Source of the DNA: Vasconcelosia minhoensis LEGE 07310
GTDB lineage: Bacteria; Cyanobacteriota; Cyanobacteriia; Phormidesmidales; Phormidesmidaceae
Assembly: GCF_015207255.1 (NCBI RefSeq)
Contig: NZ_JADEXG010000017.1
Location: 1 to 64,000 of the forward strand
Length of the DNA: 64,000 bases
Direction of reading: 5' to 3'
The notes below the pieces were generated by a model. That model was not told the DNA's origin. It saw nothing but the letters and a program-made list of their open reading frames with translations, and ran no database searches. Shown here in pieces: positions 1 to 14,256 of this stretch (position 1 is its first letter; the number at the start of each line of letters is the position of its first letter). Position numbers and translations under genes: made by a program.

Positions 1-45
1 ATCAGCACTTTCGGTCATTATCTCACAGTTGTGTATACACAGTAG

Positions 46-105
46 CCCCCCGGGAGAGGGATTTAGGGTGTAGACGCCAAAGCGGCTTCTCGAAGAGTGG
101 GCGAA
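46..105. repeat. Partial copy of a dispersed intergenic repeat
   Basis: The 19 bases at 52-70 (gggagagggatttagggtg) are the exact reverse complement of 24368-24386. The stretch at 84-102 (cttctcgaagagtgggc core) resembles 24481-24499 on the same strand. Positions 1-137 contain no gene that I can support; the treY stop codon is at 138. Confidence 0.6.
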
Positions 106-137
106 CCGGTACGCTATTTAATTGCCATTCCCTTAGC

Positions 138-2945
138 CTACAGGTCAACCGGATGGTTTTCGCTCACCAGCAGCGCCACTGGAAAATGCCGCAGCACCTC
201 CCCTACCGAGATCACATTGTCGGCAGCAATCGTGCGGTCCGTGATCCACTCGCACCAGCTGGCCTCGGCCCCGCCGGGCAGCTCGATCTGCGTATCGTTC
301 CAAATTTTAGCACCCAGCGGGTATTCCCCGGGTTGGATCAGCTCGGTCAGAAAGCGGGGCGCGATCGCGACAATCGTTCGTTCCCCCTTATGACGGGCAA
401 AGGCAATCAGATTATCAGCATGTTTGCCAACCGTTTTAATCGGGGCATAGCTGCCATTTTGCAGCACCTGGCGGAACTGATTGCGCAGGGCCAATCCGCG
501 CATCGTTAAAAAGAGCTTGATCCGCCCGTCGGTACGGCGGCTGAGCAGCTCCTTCATCAGCTTTTCTTTATCGGTCTGCCAGTCCTTTTGGATGCTCTTC
601 AGCGCCGTCAGCCGTCGGTCGTAATCCACCGGGCGGCGGTTGTCGGGGTCAACCAGGCTCAGATCCCACATTTCGGTGCCCTGATAAAAGTCGGGAATGC
701 CGGGGGCAGTCATTTTAATCAGGGTCTGGGAAAGCGCATTGTAGATGCCATAGTCAGCGATCTTCTGCTGAAAAGATTGCAGCTGCTCTAGAAACGGATT
801 TTCGGGTGAGGGGGTGAGCAGCGCCTCCACAAAGTTGACAAAGCCTTCTTCATATTCGGTGTCAGGCCGCAGCCAGGCGGTGTAGACCTTGGCCTCGCGG
901 ACGGCTTTGACCACGTAGTCTTTCACCCGCTGCTTAAACGAGTCCAGCTCACCGGGGTCAAAGGGGAAGGCGCCGACCAGCGTCTGGTAGAGAAAGTATT
1001 CGTCGTTCGGGTCAGGCACTAGGTGCCCGCTGAGGGACTGCTTGTGGGGCTGGTTGAGCTCACTCCAGGTTTTGACCTGCGATCGCCATTCCGCCGGCAG
1101 CTCTGAAATTGCATTCAGCCGGGCTCGCACGTCCTCACTGCGCTTAGTGTCATGGGTGGAAGTGGCGTTGAGGGTATAGGGCCAGTTTTCATACTGCCGC
1201 TGGTTGTACTCGTGGAAATCCATCAGCGACAGGCCGAAATGCTCGGGCGAACCGCCCACTTCATTCAGGCTGATAAACCGGTTGTAGACATAGAACAGCG
1301 TATCTTCGACCCCTTTTGCCATTAGCGGCCCGGTAAACTGCTGCAGCCGCATGACAAAATGCAGCCACTCCGCCCGTTCGTCTTCGGGCAGCGAGTCTTC
1401 GTACTCCAGCAGCAAAAATCGCTCGATCAGATTGAGCTCATTCAGCAGCTGGGGAATCCGTTTGCGGGCCGCTTGAATGGCGGTGCGAATATACTTCAGG
1501 TCGCGCTGGGCTACCCCCCGCTGGTTAATGTAGGTGCAGTAGATGGGAAAAGTCACCAGCACTTCTTGAATCGCCGTCTTCAGACCGCTAGCGGTGAGGT
1601 CGCGGCCATAGCGATACTGGCTGGCGACTTTCTTCAAAAAGCGGGCCAGGTTGTCAATATCGCCGACTAGGTTGGTGTCGGCAATCAGCTGCTTCTTCTC
1701 TAGAAAGAGCTGCTCATAGGGCGTCGTCACCCCGCTAAAGCGGCGATAGAACTGAGAAAACGGCTTACGATTTTGCTGCTGGCAGAACACGCCGTTGACG
1801 TAGTTCAAAAATTCATAGCCTGAGGTGCCCTGGACTGGCCAGTAGGAGGGTAGCTCTTCATTGAACTCAAGAATTTTTTCGATCACGATATAGAGGTCTT
1901 CTTTGCGCTCGCGCAGCCGCTTCAGGTAAACCGTCGGGTCGTAGAGGCCATCGATATGATCGATCCGCAGACCGTCAAAAGCGCCTGAATCCACCAGCTG
2001 AAAGATCAGCTTGTGCGTGTTCTTGAGCACTTTGGGGCTATCGATCTTCAGGCAAATCAGCTCGTTGACGGTAAAAAAGCGGCGGTAGTTCAGCTCCTCT
2101 GCCCCCACCTTCCAGAAAGACAGCCGGTAAAACTGCTCTAGCAGCAGCGAGTCCAGCAGGGTAAAGCTGCCCGGCTTACCGGGCTGGCCGTTAAAGGTCT
2201 CGATGTTCTGATCGATAAAGGCCTTGACTTCCTGATTGTCCTGGTACAGCTCCCACAGCATTTGCTTGACAAAGGCCGACTGGTCTTTGCGCTGCTGCAG
2301 CGCCATCTCTGGAAAGGTGTCCTTGAGCAGGTACAGAATCCCCAGCAGCTTGATGTAGTCGGGATGCTGACGGCCCAGGCGACGGCGCAGCCAGTGCAGG
2401 TCATGGGTCAAGAACTGGGCGTAGGACTCAATTCTGAGGGGAAACTGCAGGGCGTAGTAGTTGACCTTGAGGCCATCTTTGTCATAGCTGATCTGAATTT
2501 CGCCGCGCTCCAGACAGCGATCGTAAAAGTCGCCCAGCATTGGCGCTAGCAGCTTGCCCTGAATATCGTCGGAATGCTCCCACTCAATGTCGAAATAGTC
2601 AAAATACTGGGAGTGGGGACCATGCTCCAGCACGTCCATCAGGTACTGATTCTGCCCGTCGTAGGCCATGTGGTTGGGGACGATATCTTGCAGCCAGCCC
2701 ATCCCCCGCTCGTGCAGGTCGCTGATTAAGGCGTCGAACTCGCCGCGATCGCCCAGTTCCGGGTTGAGCTGGTTCTGATCGACCACGTCGTAGCCATGCC
2801 TACTGCCCGACCTCGCTTTGAAAATTGGCGAGGCGTAGATATCTGAAATGCCCAAGGCATCCAGATAGGACGCAATCTGCTTGGCCTCCTGAAAGCCAAA
2901 ATCCGGATTGAACTGAAGTCGGTAGGTCGCGATCGGGATACGCAT
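138..2945 (-). CDS. treY: Maltooligosyltrehalose synthase
   Basis: TreY rearranges the reducing-end alpha-1,4 bond of maltodextrins into an alpha,alpha-1,1 bond, making maltooligosyltrehalose in the cytoplasm. The 935-residue protein is full length and carries the GH13 regions: DIVPNH (87-92), DGLRIDHIDG (324-333, with nucleophile Asp329), acid/base Glu356 in IVIEKILE, and HDTKRSED (598-605). It starts MRIPIATYRLQF, as is typical of the family. It follows treZ by 56 bases on the same strand, so the two very probably form an operon that releases trehalose from glycogen. Trehalose is a compatible solute and desiccation protectant in many cyanobacteria. A treX/glgX debranching gene is not in the window. 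Confidence 0.97.
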   Translation of the reverse strand: MRIPIATYRLQFNPDFGFQEAKQIASYLDALGISDIYASPIFKARSGSRHGYDVVDQNQLNPELGDRGEFDALISDLHERGMGWLQDIVPNHMAYDGQNQYLMDVLEHGPHSQYFDYFDIEWEHSDDIQGKLLAPMLGDFYDRCLERGEIQISYDKDGLKVNYYALQFPLRIESYAQFLTHDLHWLRRRLGRQHPDYIKLLGILYLLKDTFPEMALQQRKDQSAFVKQMLWELYQDNQEVKAFIDQNIETFNGQPGKPGSFTLLDSLLLEQFYRLSFWKVGAEELNYRRFFTVNELICLKIDSPKVLKNTHKLIFQLVDSGAFDGLRIDHIDGLYDPTVYLKRLRERKEDLYIVIEKILEFNEELPSYWPVQGTSGYEFLNYVNGVFCQQQNRKPFSQFYRRFSGVTTPYEQLFLEKKQLIADTNLVGDIDNLARFLKKVASQYRYGRDLTASGLKTAIQEVLVTFPIYCTYINQRGVAQRDLKYIRTAIQAARKRIPQLLNELNLIERFLLLEYEDSLPEDERAEWLHFVMRLQQFTGPLMAKGVEDTLFYVYNRFISLNEVGGSPEHFGLSLMDFHEYNQRQYENWPYTLNATSTHDTKRSEDVRARLNAISELPAEWRSQVKTWSELNQPHKQSLSGHLVPDPNDEYFLYQTLVGAFPFDPGELDSFKQRVKDYVVKAVREAKVYTAWLRPDTEYEEGFVNFVEALLTPSPENPFLEQLQSFQQKIADYGIYNALSQTLIKMTAPGIPDFYQGTEMWDLSLVDPDNRRPVDYDRRLTALKSIQKDWQTDKEKLMKELLSRRTDGRIKLFLTMRGLALRNQFRQVLQNGSYAPIKTVGKHADNLIAFARHKGERTIVAIAPRFLTELIQPGEYPLGAKIWNDTQIELPGGAEASWCEWITDRTIAADNVISVGEVLRHFPVALLVSENHPVDL

Positions 2946-3001
2946 GGCTTACTCACAGGAGGATGTTCTAAACAGGGGAGCGGACAGACCAATCAAAACC
3001 G

Positions 3002-4822
3002 CTAGGTCTTAACGGTGGCATAAAGGACGACACTACGGGGTGAGATCGATACTGCGGTCTGGCTCAGGGTCTCGGGAGCTTCTGAGCCGGGGCCGTCCCA
3101 CTCGGGCGCGGCGGAGTCAATCTGCTTTTGCCAGGATAGGTTAGTGGTAAAGGTAATCTTAGCGGCGGATTTGCCAAAGTTCATCAGGCACAGCAGTTGG
3201 CCTTGAGGCAGCTGCCGCAGGTATTGGACGGTCTGGCTGGCTTCGTCGAAGTCAACTTCAATGTCTTCTGGCCGGGAAGGAGTCGCGATCGCGAGCTGCT
3301 TTCTCAGCTCAATCAGCCGCTGGTAAAAGGCGTACAGCGTTCCCTGCTGGCCCTGACCTCGCTTGTCCCACTGGAGAGTGGACTGCTTCAGGGTTTTCTC
3401 GCTGGCCGCATCGGGCGGCTCACCGGTGGCATGGAAGTCTTTGAACTCTTCCTTGCGACCCTGGCGTACGGCGGCAATCAGGTCGGGATCCCCATGATCG
3501 ACGAAGTATAGAAAGGGCGACTCCTCACCGTACTCTTCGCCCATAAACAGCATGGGAATGTAGGGCGAGAGCAGCAGCGCCCCCGCCGCCAGCTTCAGCG
3601 CCTCAAAGGAAACCAGATGGGTGAGCCGGTCGCCCATCATCCGATTACCCACCTGGTCGTGGTTTTGGACGCAGACGACAAACTGGTTTGAGGGCAGGTC
3701 GCCGGCATCGCTGCCGTGGTAGCGCTGGCGAAAGCTGGAGTACTTCCAGGCGTACACAAAGCGTTCCTTAATCGCCAGCGCCAGCGCTTCGCAGCTGCCA
3801 AAGTCGGCGTAGTAGCCGGTGCGCTCTCCGGTCAGCAGAGTATGCATGGCGTGGTGGAAATCGTCACTCCACTGGGCGTCGATGCCATAGCCGCCTTTTT
3901 TGGGCGAGCGAATGATCCGGGCGTCGTTCAGGTCGCTTTCGGCTATCAGGTAGGCCGGAGACTGCCGGGTTTCGGCAAAGGCTTGTACCGCGTCGGACAG
4001 TTCCAACAGCAAGTGCTTGGCGCCAAAGTCGTAGATGGCGTGAATGGCGTCGAGCCGCAGGGCGTCGATGTGGTAGTCCTGAAACCAGCAGAGCACGTTC
4101 TGAATTACATAATTCCGGACACCGGTGCTGTAAGCATCGTCAAAGTTGATAGCGCTGCCCCAGGGCGTCTGATACTTGTCGGTGACGTAGGGGCCGTAGA
4201 GCCCGGTATAGTTGCCCTCTGGTCCAAAGTGGTTGTAGACCACGTCCATAATCACGGCCAGCCCCGCCTGATGGCAGGCGTCTACCAGCCGTTTCAGCCC
4301 TGCCGGACCACCGTAGGAATTTTGCACGGCAAAGGGCAATACGCCGTCGTAGCCCCAGTTGCGCTCTCCCGGGAACTGGGCCACCGGCATAATTTCAACC
4401 GCAGTGATACCCAGATCGAGCAGGTCGCCCAGCCGAGGAATCACCGCGTCGAAGCTGCCCTCTGGAGTAAACGCGCCGATATGTAGTTCATAGACAATAT
4501 AGTCCTGGAGCGGAATGCCCTGCCAGCCTTCATCCTGCCAGTCGTACTGGCTGTGATCTACGACCTGAGAAGGTCCATGGACGCCCTCAGGCTGAAACCG
4601 CGAAGCCGGGTCGGGCCGACCGTCGCCCCCGTCAATGTGATAAAAGTATTGGCTGTCGGCGGCTAGACCCTTCACTTCGGTCTGCCAGTAGCCCCGCTCA
4701 TGGGGCTGAAGCGGCAGCCGCTTCGCTTCGGGGCTGACCAGCTCGAGCTCAACCTGCGATCGCTCCGGCGCCCACACCGTAAACCGGCAGCGCTCTCCGT
4801 CATAGATGGCACCAATTTGCAT
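3002..4822 (-). CDS. treZ: Malto-oligosyltrehalose trehalohydrolase
   Basis: TreZ hydrolyses the bond next to the terminal trehalose of maltooligosyltrehalose, releasing free trehalose; it is the partner of TreY. The 606-residue protein has an N-terminal CBM48/isoamylase-type beta domain (about 1-95) followed by a GH13 barrel with MDVVYNHFGPEGN, ALRLDAIHAIYD (nucleophile Asp), YLIAESDLN (acid/base Glu) and VQNHDQVGNR. The protein begins MQIGAIYDGERCRFTVWAP, a normal TreZ start. It is the first gene of the treZ-treY pair. The 190 bases upstream separate it from a divergently transcribed DedA gene, so a promoter is expected there, although no clear -10/-35 element was recognised. Confidence 0.97.
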   Translation of the reverse strand: MQIGAIYDGERCRFTVWAPERSQVELELVSPEAKRLPLQPHERGYWQTEVKGLAADSQYFYHIDGGDGRPDPASRFQPEGVHGPSQVVDHSQYDWQDEGWQGIPLQDYIVYELHIGAFTPEGSFDAVIPRLGDLLDLGITAVEIMPVAQFPGERNWGYDGVLPFAVQNSYGGPAGLKRLVDACHQAGLAVIMDVVYNHFGPEGNYTGLYGPYVTDKYQTPWGSAINFDDAYSTGVRNYVIQNVLCWFQDYHIDALRLDAIHAIYDFGAKHLLLELSDAVQAFAETRQSPAYLIAESDLNDARIIRSPKKGGYGIDAQWSDDFHHAMHTLLTGERTGYYADFGSCEALALAIKERFVYAWKYSSFRQRYHGSDAGDLPSNQFVVCVQNHDQVGNRMMGDRLTHLVSFEALKLAAGALLLSPYIPMLFMGEEYGEESPFLYFVDHGDPDLIAAVRQGRKEEFKDFHATGEPPDAASEKTLKQSTLQWDKRGQGQQGTLYAFYQRLIELRKQLAIATPSRPEDIEVDFDEASQTVQYLRQLPQGQLLCLMNFGKSAAKITFTTNLSWQKQIDSAAPEWDGPGSEAPETLSQTAVSISPRSVVLYATVKT

Positions 4823-5013
4823 ATATTTCTAAGAAAACGGTATAAAGCTTCTGGGTAAAAATACTGATGAATCTCAGTACTAGCTGCTAGGGTATCGAAA
4901 CGCCAACCGCTTTTCTTCATCTCTGGGATAGATGTGCTCAGCTTAGACTCCCCCCAGTAGGCGGACGCGTTTTTTTCAATTTCGCTGCATATTGGAATAA
5001 AATAGCGCTTTTT

Positions 5014-5646
5014 ATGCCTGACCACACCACCATTCTTGAATGGATTACGAATGCGATCGCGACCCTGGGCTACGTTGGGGTGGCGCTGCTGATGCTCCTC
5101 GAAAACGTCATTCCGCCGATTCCCTCAGAAATCATCATGCCCCTGGCCGGGTTTGCCGCCGCCCGAGGCGAGCTTAATTTCGGCTGGGCCGTCTTTGCGG
5201 GAACGGTTGGCTCGGTTGCTGGGGCGCTGCTGTGGTACTACATTGGGCAGGCGCTGGGTATCGTCCGGGTCAAAAAGCTGGTCGATCGCTATGGCCGCTG
5301 GGTTAGCCTGTCGAGCCGAGACGTAGACATCGCCCAGCGCTGGCTGCTGAAGCGCGGCTACTGGGCCGTCGGCCTCTGCCGCGTGATCCCCGGCGTCCGC
5401 ACCTACATCTCGATTCCAGCTGGCTTTGCACGGATGAAGATGCTTGGCTTTCTAACTTACTCCACCGTCGGCACGGTCATCTGGGTCGCCTTTCTCACCT
5501 ACGCCGGCTACCTGCTGGGCGACAACTATGAGCGAATTGAAACCTACATTGCTCCAGTCAGTCGCGCCGTCATCATTGGCCTGATCGCCGCAACGGTGTT
5601 TTGGATTGCTCGCCGCCGGATGAATCCTCCCGAGCCGCCAGGATAA
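5014..5646 (+). CDS. DedA family membrane protein (SNARE-associated/VTT domain)
   Basis: DedA/VTT proteins are polytopic inner-membrane proteins linked to lipid flipping, proton-motive force and envelope homeostasis; the substrate here cannot be read from sequence. The 210-residue protein has an N-terminal helix, the family motif ENVIPPIPSEIIMPLAGF (about 30-47), and the conserved RVIPGVRTYISIPAGFARM block (about 128-146), followed by two further hydrophobic helices and a short basic tail (ARRRMNPPEPPG). It stands alone on the plus strand, divergent from treZ and convergent with prk, with short tandem repeats and a hairpin directly downstream. Confidence 0.93.
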   Translation: MPDHTTILEWITNAIATLGYVGVALLMLLENVIPPIPSEIIMPLAGFAAARGELNFGWAVFAGTVGSVAGALLWYYIGQALGIVRVKKLVDRYGRWVSLSSRDVDIAQRWLLKRGYWAVGLCRVIPGVRTYISIPAGFARMKMLGFLTYSTVGTVIWVAFLTYAGYLLGDNYERIETYIAPVSRAVIIGLIAATVFWIARRRMNPPEPPG

Positions 5647-5681
5647 AGCCAGAAAAAAGCCAGAAAAAAGCCAGAAAAAAG
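5646..5681 (+). repeat. 11-bp tandem repeat (about 3 copies) after the DedA gene
   Basis: The unit agccagaaaaa is repeated three times without interruption, directly after the stop codon of the DedA gene and before the hairpin at 5703. Confidence 0.85.
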
Positions 5682-5702
5682 ATTGACTAAACGCCTAGTT
5701 AA

Positions 5703-5727
5703 AAAGGTGCTCGCTGAGCACCCTTTA
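5703..5727. terminator. Bidirectional terminator between the DedA gene and prk
   Basis: A perfect 7-bp stem (ggtgctc at 5706-5712, gagcacc at 5716-5722) with a gct loop is preceded by five A and followed by cttt. It sits between convergent genes and could serve both. Confidence 0.75.
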
Positions 5728-5761
5728 GCATTTTCGGAATCGGTAAAGTCGGCCGACTGGG

Positions 5762-6763
5762 CTAGACGGTTGACTTGGCTGGAGCCTTAGCCGTTAACAC
5801 TTCATAGGTCTCGCGCATCTTGAGCCCAACTAGGACCTGGAAAAGGCCGCTGCCGTTATTCGAGCCAGGATATTCGCGGTGCTTGAGCAGCAGCTCGGTC
5901 ATTTCGCCATAGTTTTTAGTCGAGGTATTGCTGAGATGGCTCTCGATGTAAATCACCTCTTCTAGCCGATCAAACTGACCGTCAATCTCGAGCACCGAGA
6001 CCTCTTTACCGTAGTAGCTATCGGGTCCGTAGTGCATCCGAATGCCGGGGTAGGAGCAGGTGAGCTTGCGACCGCAAGGAATCCAGTCGATGGTAGAGCC
6101 TTCGTCGAAGAGATAGACTGGGTCAAAGTTTTCGATTCCTTCGCGCTGAATCAGCCGCACCCTGAGGACCTTAGTTTCCTTATCGTCGGGAATGAGGTTA
6201 GTCGGCAGGATTTGAATGACGACGTCGGCATACTGCTTTTGGACGTCGATATAGGCTTTGAAGTCGGGCTTGCGGGAGTTGATGGCGGCCAGCACGTCTT
6301 CGTAGGTATGACCGCGCTCTTCCATATCCCGCTGGATCTTCCAGTTGATCTTGACCTCGTCGCTGATATCGAGGTAGACGCTAAAGTCGATCAGCTCGCG
6401 GACTCGCTCGTCATAGAGCGGATGTAGCCCTTCAATCACCACAATGTGGTTGGGCTCAACCCGCTCAGGGGGGTCCAGCTCGCCAGTTTCATGGTTGTAA
6501 ATCGGCTTGTCGATTGCGTTCCCAGCTTTAATTGCCTTGATCTGCTCGTACATCAGATCAAAGTTATTCGCCTTGGGATTCAGCGCCGTCACCTTCTGCG
6601 CTTTTCGCTGCTTGCGGTCGAGGCTATGGTAGTCGTCGAGGCAGATCACGGTAATAAACTCTTCGCCGAATATCTCTTCCAAACGGCGCAGAAAAGTGGA
6701 CTTACCGCATCCTGAATCGCCGGCAACTCCAATTAAAATGACTTTTTCTGGCTTACTGGCCAT
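5762..6763 (-). CDS. prk: Phosphoribulokinase
   Basis: PRK phosphorylates ribulose 5-phosphate with ATP to make ribulose 1,5-bisphosphate, the CO2 acceptor of the Calvin-Benson cycle. The 333-residue protein has the P-loop GVAGDSGCGKS (12-22). It also has the cysteine pairs of the redox-regulated cyanobacterial/plant class: Cys19 and Cys41 near the nucleotide site, and Cys230 and Cys236 (CGRKLTC) in the C-terminal half. By family knowledge these allow light/dark control through thioredoxin and the GAPDH-CP12-PRK complex. It is transcribed divergently from petH across a 492-bp spacer. Confidence 0.98.
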   Translation of the reverse strand: MASKPEKVILIGVAGDSGCGKSTFLRRLEEIFGEEFITVICLDDYHSLDRKQRKAQKVTALNPKANNFDLMYEQIKAIKAGNAIDKPIYNHETGELDPPERVEPNHIVVIEGLHPLYDERVRELIDFSVYLDISDEVKINWKIQRDMEERGHTYEDVLAAINSRKPDFKAYIDVQKQYADVVIQILPTNLIPDDKETKVLRVRLIQREGIENFDPVYLFDEGSTIDWIPCGRKLTCSYPGIRMHYGPDSYYGKEVSVLEIDGQFDRLEEVIYIESHLSNTSTKNYGEMTELLLKHREYPGSNNGSGLFQVLVGLKMRETYEVLTAKAPAKSTV

Positions 6764-8476
<1,713 letters not shown>

Positions 8477-8606: not shown

Positions 8607-9902
8607 ATGGTTTTTAAGGTCGGGTTACTCGGACTGGGTACGGTTGGCACCGGCACCGCTAAAATTTTGCTAGACCCGGAAGGGCGGCATCCGCTGCTTC
8701 AGTCGATTGAAATTTGCAAGGTTGGGGTCAAGTCGCTGAGCAAATCCCGCCAGGTCAGCCTACCGCCCGACTGTCTGACAACCGACCTGGAGGCGATTGT
8801 CAGCGATCCTGCAATCGACGTTGTGGTAGAGCTGATCGGTGGGCTAGAACCGGCGCGATCGCTCATCCTCAAGGCCATCAAACAGGGCAAGCACATCGTC
8901 ACCGCCAACAAGGCCGTAATCTCCCGCTACGGCGACCAGATTTTTACCGCTGCGAATCAGGCCGGGGTCTACGTCATGCTAGAGGCGGCGGTCGGCGGCG
9001 GCATTCCGGTGATTCAGCCGCTGAAGCAGGGTTTGGGGGTGAATCGCATCCAGGCCGTGACCGGCATCGTCAACGGCACGACCAACTATATCCTCACCCG
9101 GATGCAGAATGAGGGCGGCGACTTTGAGCCGATCCTGGCTGAGGCCCAGCGGCTGGGCTACGCCGAGGCCGACCCGGCTGCCGATGTAGACGGCTTCGAC
9201 GCGGCGGATAAGATTGCCATTCTGGCCTCCCTGGCCTTTGGCGGGCGAATTAAGCGCGATGAGGTCTACTGCGAAGGCATTCGCCAGGTCAGCGCCGCCG
9301 ATATTTCCTACGCCGACAAGCTGGGGTTTGTGATTAAGCTGCTCGCGATCGCGAAACGTCCCTATCCAAACCAGCCCGGCCTGCAGGTGCGGGTGCATCC
9401 CACCCTGGTGCCGAAGGCGCATCCGCTGGCCAGCGTCAACAGCGTCTACAATGCCATCCTGGTCGAGGGCGAGCCGATTGGGCAGGTGATGTTTTTCGGG
9501 CCGGGAGCCGGGGCGGGTCCCACTGCTAGCGCCGTCGTGTCGGACATTATCAATATCGCTGCCACCCTCACCAGCGCCGCGACTCAGCCTGTCGCTAATC
9601 CGCTGCTGGCCTGCTCCCACCAGCACTACAGTCCGATTATTCCGAACGCGGAGTTGTTTAGCCGCCTGTATCTGCGGCTGCTGGTGAAAGACCAGCCCAA
9701 GGTAATTGGCCGGCTGGGAAACTGCTTTGGCGACCACGGCGTCAGCCTGGAGTCGGTGGTGCAGATTGGCATGCAGGACAAGATCGCCGAGCTGGTGGTG
9801 ATTACCCACGAAGTGCAGGAAGGAGCTTTTCAGGCGGCACTGGATGAGATTCGCGGGTTTCCGGAGATTCAGGATATTCCTAGTTTGCTGCGGGTGCTGT
9901 AG
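8607..9902 (+). CDS. hom: Homoserine dehydrogenase
   Basis: This enzyme reduces aspartate semialdehyde to homoserine with NAD(P)H, the branch point to threonine, methionine and isoleucine. The ATG at 8607 (MVFKVGLLGLGTVGTG) is preferred; an in-frame TTG at 8583 would add eight residues with no support. The protein has a Rossmann motif GLGTVGTGTAK, the catalytic-domain signature EADPAADVDGFDAADK, and a C-terminal ACT domain (about the last 80 residues, from LYLRLLVKDQPKVIG) for threonine feedback. Length (431) is normal for the stand-alone, non-kinase form. prmC follows after 12 bases, so the two are probably co-transcribed. Confidence 0.97.
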   Translation: MVFKVGLLGLGTVGTGTAKILLDPEGRHPLLQSIEICKVGVKSLSKSRQVSLPPDCLTTDLEAIVSDPAIDVVVELIGGLEPARSLILKAIKQGKHIVTANKAVISRYGDQIFTAANQAGVYVMLEAAVGGGIPVIQPLKQGLGVNRIQAVTGIVNGTTNYILTRMQNEGGDFEPILAEAQRLGYAEADPAADVDGFDAADKIAILASLAFGGRIKRDEVYCEGIRQVSAADISYADKLGFVIKLLAIAKRPYPNQPGLQVRVHPTLVPKAHPLASVNSVYNAILVEGEPIGQVMFFGPGAGAGPTASAVVSDIINIAATLTSAATQPVANPLLACSHQHYSPIIPNAELFSRLYLRLLVKDQPKVIGRLGNCFGDHGVSLESVVQIGMQDKIAELVVITHEVQEGAFQAALDEIRGFPEIQDIPSLLRVL

Positions 9903-9914
9903 GGGAGTGATGGA

Positions 9915-10823
9915 GTGGGTGAAGGGGTGGCGAGGGGGGTAGAGCTGGTGGCCTGGCGGCGGTGGGCGCAGCAGGCGGCCGCGGCGGGTGGCGTGCCGCT
10001 GGCTGAGGTGGATTGGTTTTTGCAGGCGATGACGGCTTTGGACGGGCTGGCGCTGAGGTTTGAAACTTACGCGGCTGAGGATTCGATTTCGCTGAACGTG
10101 CCGCTTGAAATCCTGTCTCAGCAATGGCGGCGGCGGGTTGAAGAGCGTGTTCCGGTGCAGTATCTGGTGGGTGAAACTCGCTGGCGGCAGTTTTCTCTGA
10201 CGGTTTCGCCCGCTGTTTTGATTCCTCGGCCTGAAACTGAGCTGATGGTTGAGATTGTCAGTCAGGCGCTGGAGCGAAGTCCGCTGCGGGAAATTTTGCG
10301 GCGGGGTGACTGGGCGGATTTGGGGACGGGCAGCGGCGCGATCGCGCTGGCCCTGGCAAATTGCTTTCCCCAGGCTCGGGTGAATGCAGTGGATGTGAGT
10401 GCGGCGGCGATCGCGATCGCGCAGCACAATGCTGACCGCGCTGGCCTCAGCCGCCAGATTCAGTTCCACCAGGGCTCGTGGTTTGAGCCGCTGGCCGGGC
10501 AGCAGGGACTGGCTGGAATGGTTTCTAATCCGCCCTATATTCCGCATCGAACCGTTTTGACGCTACAGCCCGAAGTCACGCAGCACGAACCCCATCTTGC
10601 TCTAGACGGCGGCGATGACGGCTTGGATTGCATTCGCCATCTGGTGCAGACGGCTCCTCAATACCTCCAGCCCGGCGGCCTGTGGCTGGTGGAAACGATG
10701 GCCGGGCAGACCGAAGCGGTTGCGGCTTTACTGCGATCGCAGGGGCAGTATGAGAAAATCTCGGTCCATCGAGATCTGGCAGGACATCAAAGATTTGTAC
10801 TCGCCCACCGCCGTAAGATGTGA
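9915..10823 (+). CDS. prmC: Peptide chain release factor N5-glutamine methyltransferase
   Basis: PrmC methylates the glutamine of the GGQ motif in release factors RF1/RF2, which is needed for efficient translation termination. The 302-residue protein has the N-terminal helical release-factor binding part (about 1-100), the SAM-binding motif DLGTGSGAIALAL (135-147) and the diagnostic NPPY (205-208). The start is GTG; another in-frame GTG lies four codons in, so the exact N-terminus is uncertain. It lies 12 bases after hom and ends 12 bases before the next small ORF. Confidence 0.96.
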   Translation: MGEGVARGVELVAWRRWAQQAAAAGGVPLAEVDWFLQAMTALDGLALRFETYAAEDSISLNVPLEILSQQWRRRVEERVPVQYLVGETRWRQFSLTVSPAVLIPRPETELMVEIVSQALERSPLREILRRGDWADLGTGSGAIALALANCFPQARVNAVDVSAAAIAIAQHNADRAGLSRQIQFHQGSWFEPLAGQQGLAGMVSNPPYIPHRTVLTLQPEVTQHEPHLALDGGDDGLDCIRHLVQTAPQYLQPGGLWLVETMAGQTEAVAALLRSQGQYEKISVHRDLAGHQRFVLAHRRKM

Positions 10824-11353: not shown

Positions 11354-11890
11354 TTAGTAATGGGGGGATGGGTGGTTTGTTTCCAGTGGCCAGTTAGCAG
11401 TTGAGGCAAGTTCTATCAGCTCTGGCTTTGGCATTCGGATCCCTTTCTGGACTAAGATGCTCAGCCACTTGCAGAGTTCAGCACTGATTAGGATTCGCCG
11501 CTGATCAATTTGCTGAATGATCCAAAGGGTGCCATGAACGGAAACTTGCTCCTGATAGCAAAGGTTTCTCAGCGGTTTTTCGTTGGTCAGCAGCAGACGA
11601 TTAAAGTTTTTTGCGTAGTAAAAGCACAGGGCGTCTTGAAGGCTGAATGGGCCTCGGTGATAGAGCTGTGCAGATTGTACCCATTCGCGGCTGACAGCAA
11701 TCTGCTGAATTCCGGCGGCTCGAATCTTGGTTAAAAGAAATAAGCTCATGCTTTCTTTAGCCCCCCTTCTTAAGGGGGGCTAAAGGGGGATCCTCGGGTG
11801 CTTTGAGGTATTGAGATCCCCCTCTGTCCCCCTTGAAAAGGGGGAGGTTAGAGCCCATATCGATCAGGATGTTGGCATCTGAGAGCAGAA
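11354..11890 (-). pseudogene. PIN-domain toxin gene disrupted by a palindromic repeat
   Basis: The N-terminal codons are visible directly at the end of the XRE/IrrE gene. A TTG overlapping its TGA stop begins ILLSDANILIDMGSN, a standard PIN-domain first strand with the metal-binding Asp. At about 11850 the frame enters a C/G-rich palindromic repeat and stops. After the repeat, an open frame from 11749 down to 11354 gives the rest of a PIN protein: SLQDALCFYYAKNFNRLLLT, then NEKPLRNL, VHGTLWIIQQI and LCKWLSILVQKGIRMP. About 20-40 residues between the two parts are missing. PIN proteins are Mg-dependent RNases, usually toxins. The repeat very probably inactivated this one. The surviving 131-codon ORF lacks the first catalytic Asp. 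Confidence 0.8.
11757..11850. repeat. Palindromic CCCCCTT/AAGGGGG repeat element inside the PIN gene
   Basis: About 94 bases are made of nested inverted repeats: agccccccttcttaagggg- type at 11760-11782, ggggatc...gatcccc at about 11787-11822, and cccccttgaaaaggggg at about 11829-11845. The same building blocks recur at 13612-13830. Such elements are common, non-autonomous dispersed repeats in cyanobacterial genomes and carry no gene. Confidence 0.85.
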
Positions 11891-13000
11891 TCAAGCTTCA
11901 GCCTCCTCCAGCCAGGCGTTGAGCGATTCTCGGACTTTGATCAGAGGCTTGCCTAAGATTTCGGCGGCTCTAGAAATCGTGATCTTTCCCTGGCGTAGTG
12001 CCAGGTAAACCATGCGTTCTAGGCGGGTTAAATGCTCTGGCTGAGGCAGTGTCACAGGTTCATTATCGGCCCCGTACTTTTTATTCAAGATGCCGATCTG
12101 CTGGCCTTTTTGCTTTATGGTAATCAGTTTGGCCTGCCTGGCGCGGTATAGAACTGTTCGCAGGCTGACGCCATATCTCCGCTTGATATCCATGAGCAAA
12201 GGTTCTGGTAGCCAGCGATCGCGGTAGGCATGAAGCTCACGCCGGATCACGTCCTCCGGTAGCAGCACGGCTCCAGCAAAGTGATTGGCAGCTTTTTCGC
12301 TGGGGTCGCTGCGTTTGGATTTGTTGAACCTCAGGTGAGCTTTAATCTCAACGGAAATGCGGTATTCCTGGCGGTGAAAGACCAGGTGAGCCAGTTCGTG
12401 CAGGGCGGTAAAGAATTTTCGCTCGGTAGGATGGCTTTCATTGATGAAAATGGTTGCGCCGTCGGTTTCGGTATAGGCTGAAAAGCCTGAGATTTCTGGG
12501 GGCAGCGGATGTAGGATTGCCTTTAGCCCTTTTGACTCTAGCAGCGCCAATACATCGCCTAGCGGGCAAGCTTCGCCCACGCCAAGCCAGTCGCGAATTT
12601 CGCGGGCAACTTCCTCAACGATGTAGTCGTTGTAACCCTGTAGGGGACGCAGGGCGGGCAGGGTAGGGACTTCCTGTACCAGGGTTTCTACGAAGGCATA
12701 GTCTGCTGCTTTTTGGGAAAGCGTTGCTCGCAAGTAGGGATTCAAGGCTGAAGGATCATCAGCTCTGAACATGAGCCCTGGTTCAAAGGTTTCGGTTGCT
12801 GGCCGGGAAGTTTGTAGCAGCAGTTCGACGCTGACTCCCAAAGTCTGGGCAATTTTGGCTAGCTGAGCGACGGATGGCTCGCGGTCTTCCCGTTCCCAGG
12901 CTGCGATGGTTTGGCGGGTGACGCCGACGCGATCGCCAAGTTCTGCCTGAGATAGGCCAGACTGCTCTCTACAATGACGTATTAAATTAACATGTGTCAT
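11891..13000 (-). CDS. XRE-family regulator fused to ImmA/IrrE-type metallopeptidase
   Basis: The 369-residue protein has an N-terminal XRE helix-turn-helix (about 4-60: SGLSQAELGDRVGVTRQTI). An ImmA/IrrE (COG2856) zinc-peptidase domain follows with HELAH at 201-205, then a C-terminal helical part that looks like a second small DNA- or protein-binding domain (ALRQGKITISRAAEILGK). In related systems the peptidase cleaves a repressor or antitoxin, and XRE-IrrE genes often pair with a downstream PIN or other toxin gene. Exactly that arrangement is present here, with the PIN start overlapping the stop. The toxin is broken, the regulator is intact. Operator-like half-sites lie at the promoter. Confidence 0.9.
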   Translation of the reverse strand: MTHVNLIRHCREQSGLSQAELGDRVGVTRQTIAAWEREDREPSVAQLAKIAQTLGVSVELLLQTSRPATETFEPGLMFRADDPSALNPYLRATLSQKAADYAFVETLVQEVPTLPALRPLQGYNDYIVEEVAREIRDWLGVGEACPLGDVLALLESKGLKAILHPLPPEISGFSAYTETDGATIFINESHPTERKFFTALHELAHLVFHRQEYRISVEIKAHLRFNKSKRSDPSEKAANHFAGAVLLPEDVIRRELHAYRDRWLPEPLLMDIKRRYGVSLRTVLYRARQAKLITIKQKGQQIGILNKKYGADNEPVTLPQPEHLTRLERMVYLALRQGKITISRAAEILGKPLIKVRESLNAWLEEAEA

Positions 13001-13197: not shown

Positions 13198-13590
13198 CTA
13201 ACTGGCGTGAGGACCATGAGATTCTGGCCAATGCTGAATTTTGTGACACACAACATCAAAATTGTTGAGTACGTCTTGATTGGTGAACCGGACTACGCTC
13301 AGCCCATATTGCTCAAGTCTGTGAGTTCGTTGCTGATCGTAAGCCTGCCCGTCTTCAGTAAAGTGACTGTCTCCATCTACTTCGATGACGAGTTTGAGTG
13401 CTGCGCAGTAAAAGTCCACGATAAAATAGTCAATTGGACGCTGACGGAGAACGCGAAATTTGAAGTCTCTCAAAAAGTCAACCCATAGCTTCTTCTCTGC
13501 AGGAGTCATATTTTTACGCAGTTCTTTTGCCTGAGGTATCAGGTCTTGGTTGTAGGGGAGATGGAACTGGCTATGATTTAGCTTGTTCAT
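13198..13590 (-). CDS. DUF559 domain protein (Vsr-like nuclease fold)
   Basis: DUF559 proteins share the PD-(D/E)XK/very-short-patch-repair endonuclease fold; their biological role is unsettled. The 130-residue protein shows the family pattern: AKELRKNMTPAEKKLWVDF, then FRVLRQRPIDYFIVDFYCA, LKLVIEVDGDSHF (catalytic Asp/Glu), DQQRTHRLEQYGLSVVRFTN, and a C-terminal helix. The ATG at 13590 is chosen. The frame stays open for 34 more codons upstream, but that part is only translated palindromic repeat (LNPFPPLLRG repeated). It lies in the decayed accessory patch between the repeat cluster and the XRE/IrrE gene. Confidence 0.88.
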   Translation of the reverse strand: MNKLNHSQFHLPYNQDLIPQAKELRKNMTPAEKKLWVDFLRDFKFRVLRQRPIDYFIVDFYCAALKLVIEVDGDSHFTEDGQAYDQQRTHRLEQYGLSVVRFTNQDVLNNFDVVCHKIQHWPESHGPHAS

Positions 13591-13611
13591 GGGTTGACTG
13601 GTGTGGCGGTA

Positions 13612-13831
13612 GGGGAGATCCCCCCTAGCCCCCCTTAGTAAGGGGGGAAACGGATTCAAAGCCCCCCTTAGTAAGGGGGGAAACGGATTCAAAGCCCCCC
13701 TTAGTAAGGGGGATTTAGCGGGATCGGGCAGCGGCTCGAGCTACCGGAGATCCCCCCTAGCCCCCCTTGGAAAGGGGGGAACTGGATCTCAAAGTCCCCC
13801 TTTTCAAGGGGGATTTAGGGGGATCCTCCTA
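13612..13831. repeat. Cluster of CCCCCTT/AAGGGGG palindromic repeats with a 33-bp tandem array
   Basis: A 33-bp unit (agccccccttagtaaggggg plus gaaacggattcaa) is tandem at 13627-13659, 13660-13692 and, partly, from 13693. A second element with the same blocks spans about 13746-13830 (gatcccccctagccccc, cccccttttcaaggggg, ggatttagggggatcc). All units can fold into GC-rich hairpins. They are related to the element inside the PIN gene at 11757-11850, and they border the restriction-modification relic on its 3' side. Confidence 0.9.
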
Positions 13832-14148
13832 CACTAAACACCTTCATGACTTCGTCGCCGAGGTGGTTGATCACCTTGACAGCAATGTGGCCCGACTTCG
13901 GTTTATTAAACGGGCGAGAGGTCTCGCTGTATAAGCTTTCCCAGGCTTCGAGGTCGATCTCGGCTTTGAGGGTGGTTTTTAGGGATTTGTAGGGGTCGTT
14001 TGCGCCGAGGAAGTAGGCGTGGCGGACGAAGGAGCTTCCTTCGTTGTAGTTGGTATCGATGAACCAGCAGGCGATCGCGAATCGTAATCCCCGGCGTCAC
14101 GATTAGAAAGCCTCGGATCAAAAGGAATTGAGACGCAAATTTGTGCTG
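13815..14148 (-). pseudogene. Fused relic of a restriction-modification locus (helicase/nuclease fragment joined to methyltransferase C-terminus)
   Basis: From about 14146 to 14068 one frame reads HKFASQFLLIRGFLIVTPG then ITIRDRL, matching the helicase motif region of large restriction subunits (type III-like/BPTD_3080-type). Near 14075 another frame takes over and continues to 13815: IACWFIDTNYNEGSSFVRH, AYFLGANDPYKSLKTTLKAE, then SRPFNKPKSGHIAVKVINHL and GDEVMKVFSV. This is the C-terminus of the site-specific adenine/cytosine DNA methyltransferases that accompany such restriction subunits. The two frames join within the HIP1 octamer at 14071-14078. The last codons run into the palindromic repeat. 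Both partners are otherwise gone, so this is a dead remnant. Confidence 0.75.
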
Positions 14149-14256
14149 TCAGCACCCCTGAAATTGCCTGAATAGAGGCTAGCTCACCCTCCAAAAAAGT
14201 TCCCATTAAAATAAATCAACGAACAGTGAGTTTACTCTACTACTATGCTGAAATAG

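Follow-up and report, generated by a model that had tools for sequence, protein, structure and literature searches.

The relic and its parent genes

The stretch of DNA analysed here, referred to below as the window, comprises 64,000 nucleotides (64 kb) of contig NZ_JADEXG010000017.1 from the cyanobacterium Vasconcelosia minhoensis LEGE 07310. On its minus strand lies a relic that, judged by its sequence, belongs to a restriction-modification (R-M) locus of the BPTD_3080 type, with the order leader of the restriction gene (R), R, methyltransferase gene (M) and then a DUF559 gene. Another copy of the locus, which is nearly complete, is found on contig C159 of the source genome (5.26 Mb in 161 contigs), and because of this paralogue both sides of the larger joint in the relic, J2, could be aligned as DNA. 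On C159 both genes are on the minus strand, M at 10-3042 and R at 4228-7247, and R, with its start at 7247, is read before M. C159 R is split into two frames, either because of a genuine frameshift or through an error in the sequence, and its parts match the NCBIfam family NF046055 (restr_BPTD_3080) with 645 and 710 bits over profile positions 1-424 and 415-969, the curated cut-off of 800 being set for the whole protein. A preliminary description of the window, made from its letters alone, had guessed this family correctly. C159 M matches N6_N4_Mtase (E=2.3e-29) and also the PADLOC type III MTase. No intact homologue with both segments in one gene was found, R and M being two separate genes, with R upstream of M, in C159 and in the genomes G043, G026, G007, and G063. 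The parent genes of the relic are thus a restriction gene of the BPTD_3080 family (NF046055) and its partner N6/N4 methyltransferase gene, in the R-then-M order. What the window copy retains of them is the leader with a few codons of R, a further 48 bp of that gene, and the last ~86 M codons.

Read 5' to 3' on the minus strand, the relic opens with the leader of R and the first codons of that gene, followed by a joint (J1), a middle fragment of R, J2, and the M end. The opening part, in which R is read as TCT CAA TTC..., lies at 14122..14206 and matches C159 7233-7317 at 78% over 85 bp (E=5e-13), and therefore the extent of 13815-14148 first given for the relic was too short. Where the start codon of R would stand (14134-14136), the minus strand reads GCG and not ATG. 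J1, at 14117..14125, was located by a three-way DNA comparison with the 5' end and the middle of C159 R. It connects codons 2-4 of R with codon ~208 of the same gene; relative to C159 about 0.6 kb of R is gone, little or no sequence is shared between the two sides, and the HIP1 octamer, GCGATCGC, is absent from it. The R middle fragment, 48 bp of the BPTD_3080-type restriction (helicase) gene at 14069..14116, is 89% identical to C159 6575-6630, and is read as RGFLIVTPGITIRDRL in a minus-strand frame from ~14121 to 14074. As DNA, window 14061-14116 matches the same-genome R gene at 89% (E=7e-14); as protein the match is weak when taken alone in a genome search (E=0.0018) because merely 16-18 R residues are left. 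The M end, at 13815..14075, comprises the last ~86 codons and the stop of a BPTD_3080-associated DNA methyltransferase, with 91% DNA identity to C159 123-366 (E=3e-94) and a protein match to the same-genome methyltransferase of E=5e-47. Its frame, IACWFIDTNY...EVMKVFSVGGSP-stop, is separate from that of RGFLIVTPGITIRDRL and runs for 82 codons from IACWF to KVFSV (14075 to 13830), followed by GGSP and the stop down to 13815. These DNA and protein matches to genes of the same genome confirm that a restriction fragment runs into the C-terminus of a methyltransferase on the minus strand.

J2, where R passes into M, lies at 14069..14078. The ambiguous tract here, AGGCGATCGC, is identical in the R copy and agrees in register at 8/10 positions with the M copy of C159, which reads AGGCTATAGC. 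The tract includes HIP1 at 14071-14078, and the reading frame switches on this octamer as had been described. The two J2 sites are 6.2 kb apart on C159, and about 6.2 kb is gone from the window. A deletion removing most of the locus had been proposed, and most of it is indeed missing, about 0.4 kb being left of about 7.2 kb, but this took two deletions, of which the one at J1 is without HIP1.

The relic is no longer a functional system: it lacks the start codon of R and the catalytic region of the methyltransferase, and it has undergone two deletions. A function for the R/M fusion was considered and rejected, since the open M frame is without a usable start codon ahead of the joint. At sites where four relatives agree the relic has five amino-acid changes of its own while each relative has 0-3, and we take these changes to reflect relaxed selection on a decaying remnant. 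The M end of the stump looks native, and M of Nodosilinea ends FSVGSP-stop. At the C-terminus of C159 M (L096:1-124) the last codons are swapped for a repeat that is identical on contig C43 and 81% alike on C18; this may be a mobile element or mark an assembly end.

HIP1 at the break points of J2

HIP1 is the commonest short repeat of this genome, and the window has 77 copies of it against 2.6 expected. The mere presence of HIP1 is therefore unsurprising and it is its position on the joint that is surprising. The R break point is HIP1 in C159, G043, G031, and G063, and over the whole ambiguous tract C159 R does not differ from the window. In G043 HIP1 occupies the homologous site of each gene, inside CGCGATCGCCTGC, a 13-bp sequence whose copies are 5.9 kb apart and which is the longest direct repeat between the R and M genes of that genome; it is the shared tract that had been predicted from the window, one base longer. 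In addition, GCGATCGC encodes 22 of the 28 Ala-Ile-Ala triplets in long open reading frames (ORFs) of the window and 7 of the 10 in cyanobacterial genes of the BPTD_3080-type R-M family. It is likely from these comparisons that the lost M parent carried HIP1, that is, that HIP1 stood at both break points.

Several observations weigh against this and against a joint guided by HIP1. C159 M reads GCTATAGC at the break point where R has HIP1 (6/8), and so the strictly shared tract at J2 is 4 bp, AGGC alone; the Nodosilinea M reads GCCATTGC, which is not HIP1 either. Among 23 distinct cyanobacterial M sequences only that of G043 has HIP1 at this site, and it is also the only one of the four that share the HIP1-permitting Ala-Ile-Ala-Cys codons (G043 GCGATCGCC; C159 GCTATAGCC; Nodosilinea GCCATTGCC; G118 GCCATAGCG). 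The deletion from HIP1 to HIP1 proposed in the preliminary description is nevertheless supported on the whole, and neither of the outcomes named there as refuting it was fully observed: it agrees with the R sites of C159, G043, G031, and G063 and with the M site of G043, but not with the M genes of C159 and Nodosilinea. Finally, J1 and the joints of three M stubs in other copies of the locus (G063, G082, and the second copy of G043) are without HIP1, and therefore HIP1 is not required for such deletions.

The contribution of chance was estimated by simulating one million random joints between R and M of C159, although C159 represents the lost M parent imperfectly. At least 4 bp were shared in 1.75% of these joints, 8/10 positions agreed in register in 0.34%, HIP1 was at the joint in 0.43%, and HIP1 together with the 8/10 in-register similarity occurred at a frequency of 4.8e-5, a figure that is partly post hoc although the test itself had been named beforehand. 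At this frequency a random cut is an unlikely origin of J2, even with an imperfect M stand-in. Among direct-repeat pairs in the window with a spacing of 0.5-8 kb, HIP1 accounts for 18% of those of at least 10 bp and for 43% of those of at least 13 bp, and it is therefore expected at deletion joints by supply.

Other copies and stubs of the locus

The same R/M fusion was not found elsewhere in 390 genomes of the class when searched with a degenerate pattern, the four other matches all being in unrelated frames. M C-terminal stubs are present in G063 (contig C165), G082 (C73), G043 (C9, the second copy), and G031, and they are like the relic in that the M 3' end survives alone or nearly so; the joints of the first three were read and differ from J2 in being free of HIP1. 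In G031 (L100:8895-10684) R is nearly complete, while all that is left of M is ~100 codons from its start and ~160 from its end. An ORF for an HNH_2 endonuclease (9414-10352) lies between these two remnants, and this is another route of M loss in the BPTD_3080-type family. G007 has a second copy of the last ~22 M codons (L098:11385-11450) about 560 bp downstream of a complete M, as if the M 3' end had been duplicated. Independent genomes retain the last 50-65 M codons alone (L146:3794-3979, L148:7992-8138, and L093:1498-1698), and it seems that the M 3' end survives more often than other parts of M.

Neighbourhood of the relic

Downstream of the relic, on the minus strand at 13198..13692, is a DUF559 gene (Pfam DUF559, E=2.5e-28). 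A DUF559 gene also adjoins M in Nodosilinea LEGE 07088 (L022/L145; 71% over 598 bp), and because of this common neighbour the stump probably occupies the original site of the intact locus. An exact intact orthologue at this site was looked for but not found: among the copies available, the closest with the same downstream neighbour, L145 of Nodosilinea LEGE 07088, is a 3.4-kb contig with the M 3' part alone and offers no R for comparison. Two other genes were followed as markers of the upstream neighbourhood: DUF29 is widespread and a class-wide DNA search matched just its coding part, and the SWIM-domain protein has close relatives in two genomes. A repeat of the form CCCCCCTTAGTAAGGGGGGA occurs several times between the DUF559 gene and the relic (13614-13830) and is also found between R and M on C159 (3089-3165). 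Further along, at 11354-13000, a regulator gene with XRE-HTH and ImmA/IrrE (Peptidase_M78) domains adjoins a gene for a small protein without a Pfam match, and the two are possibly a toxin-antitoxin-like pair.

Proposed course of events and alternatives

We propose, with good confidence, that the relic is the dead stump of a BPTD_3080-type locus that suffered two internal deletions, the larger of them a short-repeat deletion in which HIP1 served as a passive repeat. At J2 about 6.2 kb would have been taken out, from the HIP1 that R carries at codons I-R-D-R-L, ATTCGCGATCGCCT, to a HIP1-like sequence in register with it at codons A-I-A-C of M, GCnATnGCCTGC. The route would be RecA-independent and of the slipped-strand or single-strand-annealing type, and HIP1 would act merely as a frequent short direct repeat and not through a dedicated enzyme. 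We infer this pathway, and likewise the order of the two deletions.

If J2 had instead been formed by homology-independent end joining, HIP1 would be present just because the R side had one. The abundance of HIP1 in the window would agree with this, as would the 4 bp strictly shared with the same-genome M copy and the HIP1-free joints at J1 and in the other stubs, but the rarity among random C159 joints of HIP1, and above all of HIP1 combined with in-register similarity, makes end joining an unlikely origin of J2. An enzyme that acts on GCGATCGC, a HIP1-specific recombinase or endonuclease, would make J2 a product of site-specific recombination and not of passive repeat length. HIP1-linked recombination has been reported for plasmids of Synechococcus PCC 7002, and in Synechococcus elongatus PCC 7942 a 188.6-kb inversion lies between two porin genes that both have HIP1 ahead of the break (as cited in PMC4390886 and PMC9239245, the latter for the inversion). 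However, the title of Robinson 1997 speaks of similar excision frequencies in E. coli and Synechococcus, which favours a passive repeat, and the other joints in this analysis do not use HIP1; we therefore hold such an enzyme to be very improbable. Nor do we give much credit to an assembly chimera of two copies of the locus, for which the chance appears slimmer still. A second copy does exist, and C159, the contig that carries it, has a repeat at its end beside M, but in M about 9% of the positions differ between the relic and C159, and the relic is enclosed in a contig of 84 kb where its neighbour on the downstream side is conserved.

Relation to known HIP1 rearrangements

The role of HIP1 in recombination has been debated ever since its discovery at a deletion, and we know of no agreed function for it. 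According to the account in PMC6331805, Gupta et al. (1993) first described HIP1 with a deletion at the metallothionein locus of Synechococcus PCC 6301, and it was suggested at that time that HIP1 favours rearrangements. It was thus wrong to say, as the preliminary description did, that deletion joints marked by HIP1 are rarely pointed out. Elhai (2015) summarised evidence for HIP1 in site-specific and in illegitimate recombination and none linking it to homologous recombination (PMC4390886). As far as that account of the 1993 deletion goes, the relic is like it in being a HIP1-involving deletion in a cyanobacterium, but it has lost about 6.2 kb of an R-M locus without a sign of selection for the loss. 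A deletion with HIP1 at its joint is therefore of a kind known since 1993, to which the relic adds a clean, well-controlled case.

It might be asked whether HIP1 sites systematically channel gene loss in cyanobacteria, since the synonymous formation of HIP1 seeds identical octamers in unrelated genes. Recently gained loci such as R-M systems would then be pruned preferentially from one HIP1 copy to another, and at a higher rate than by way of equally long repeats of other sequence, but we consider such channelling unlikely. In the present case the two parents of a joint at HIP1 are available for comparison as DNA, together with a relative in which each break point lies in a 13-bp HIP1 repeat and with sister stubs whose joints are free of HIP1. 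The question that it raises is whether deletion joints fall on HIP1 more often than its 18-43% share of the short repeats of suitable length and spacing, as counted in the window, would lead one to expect.
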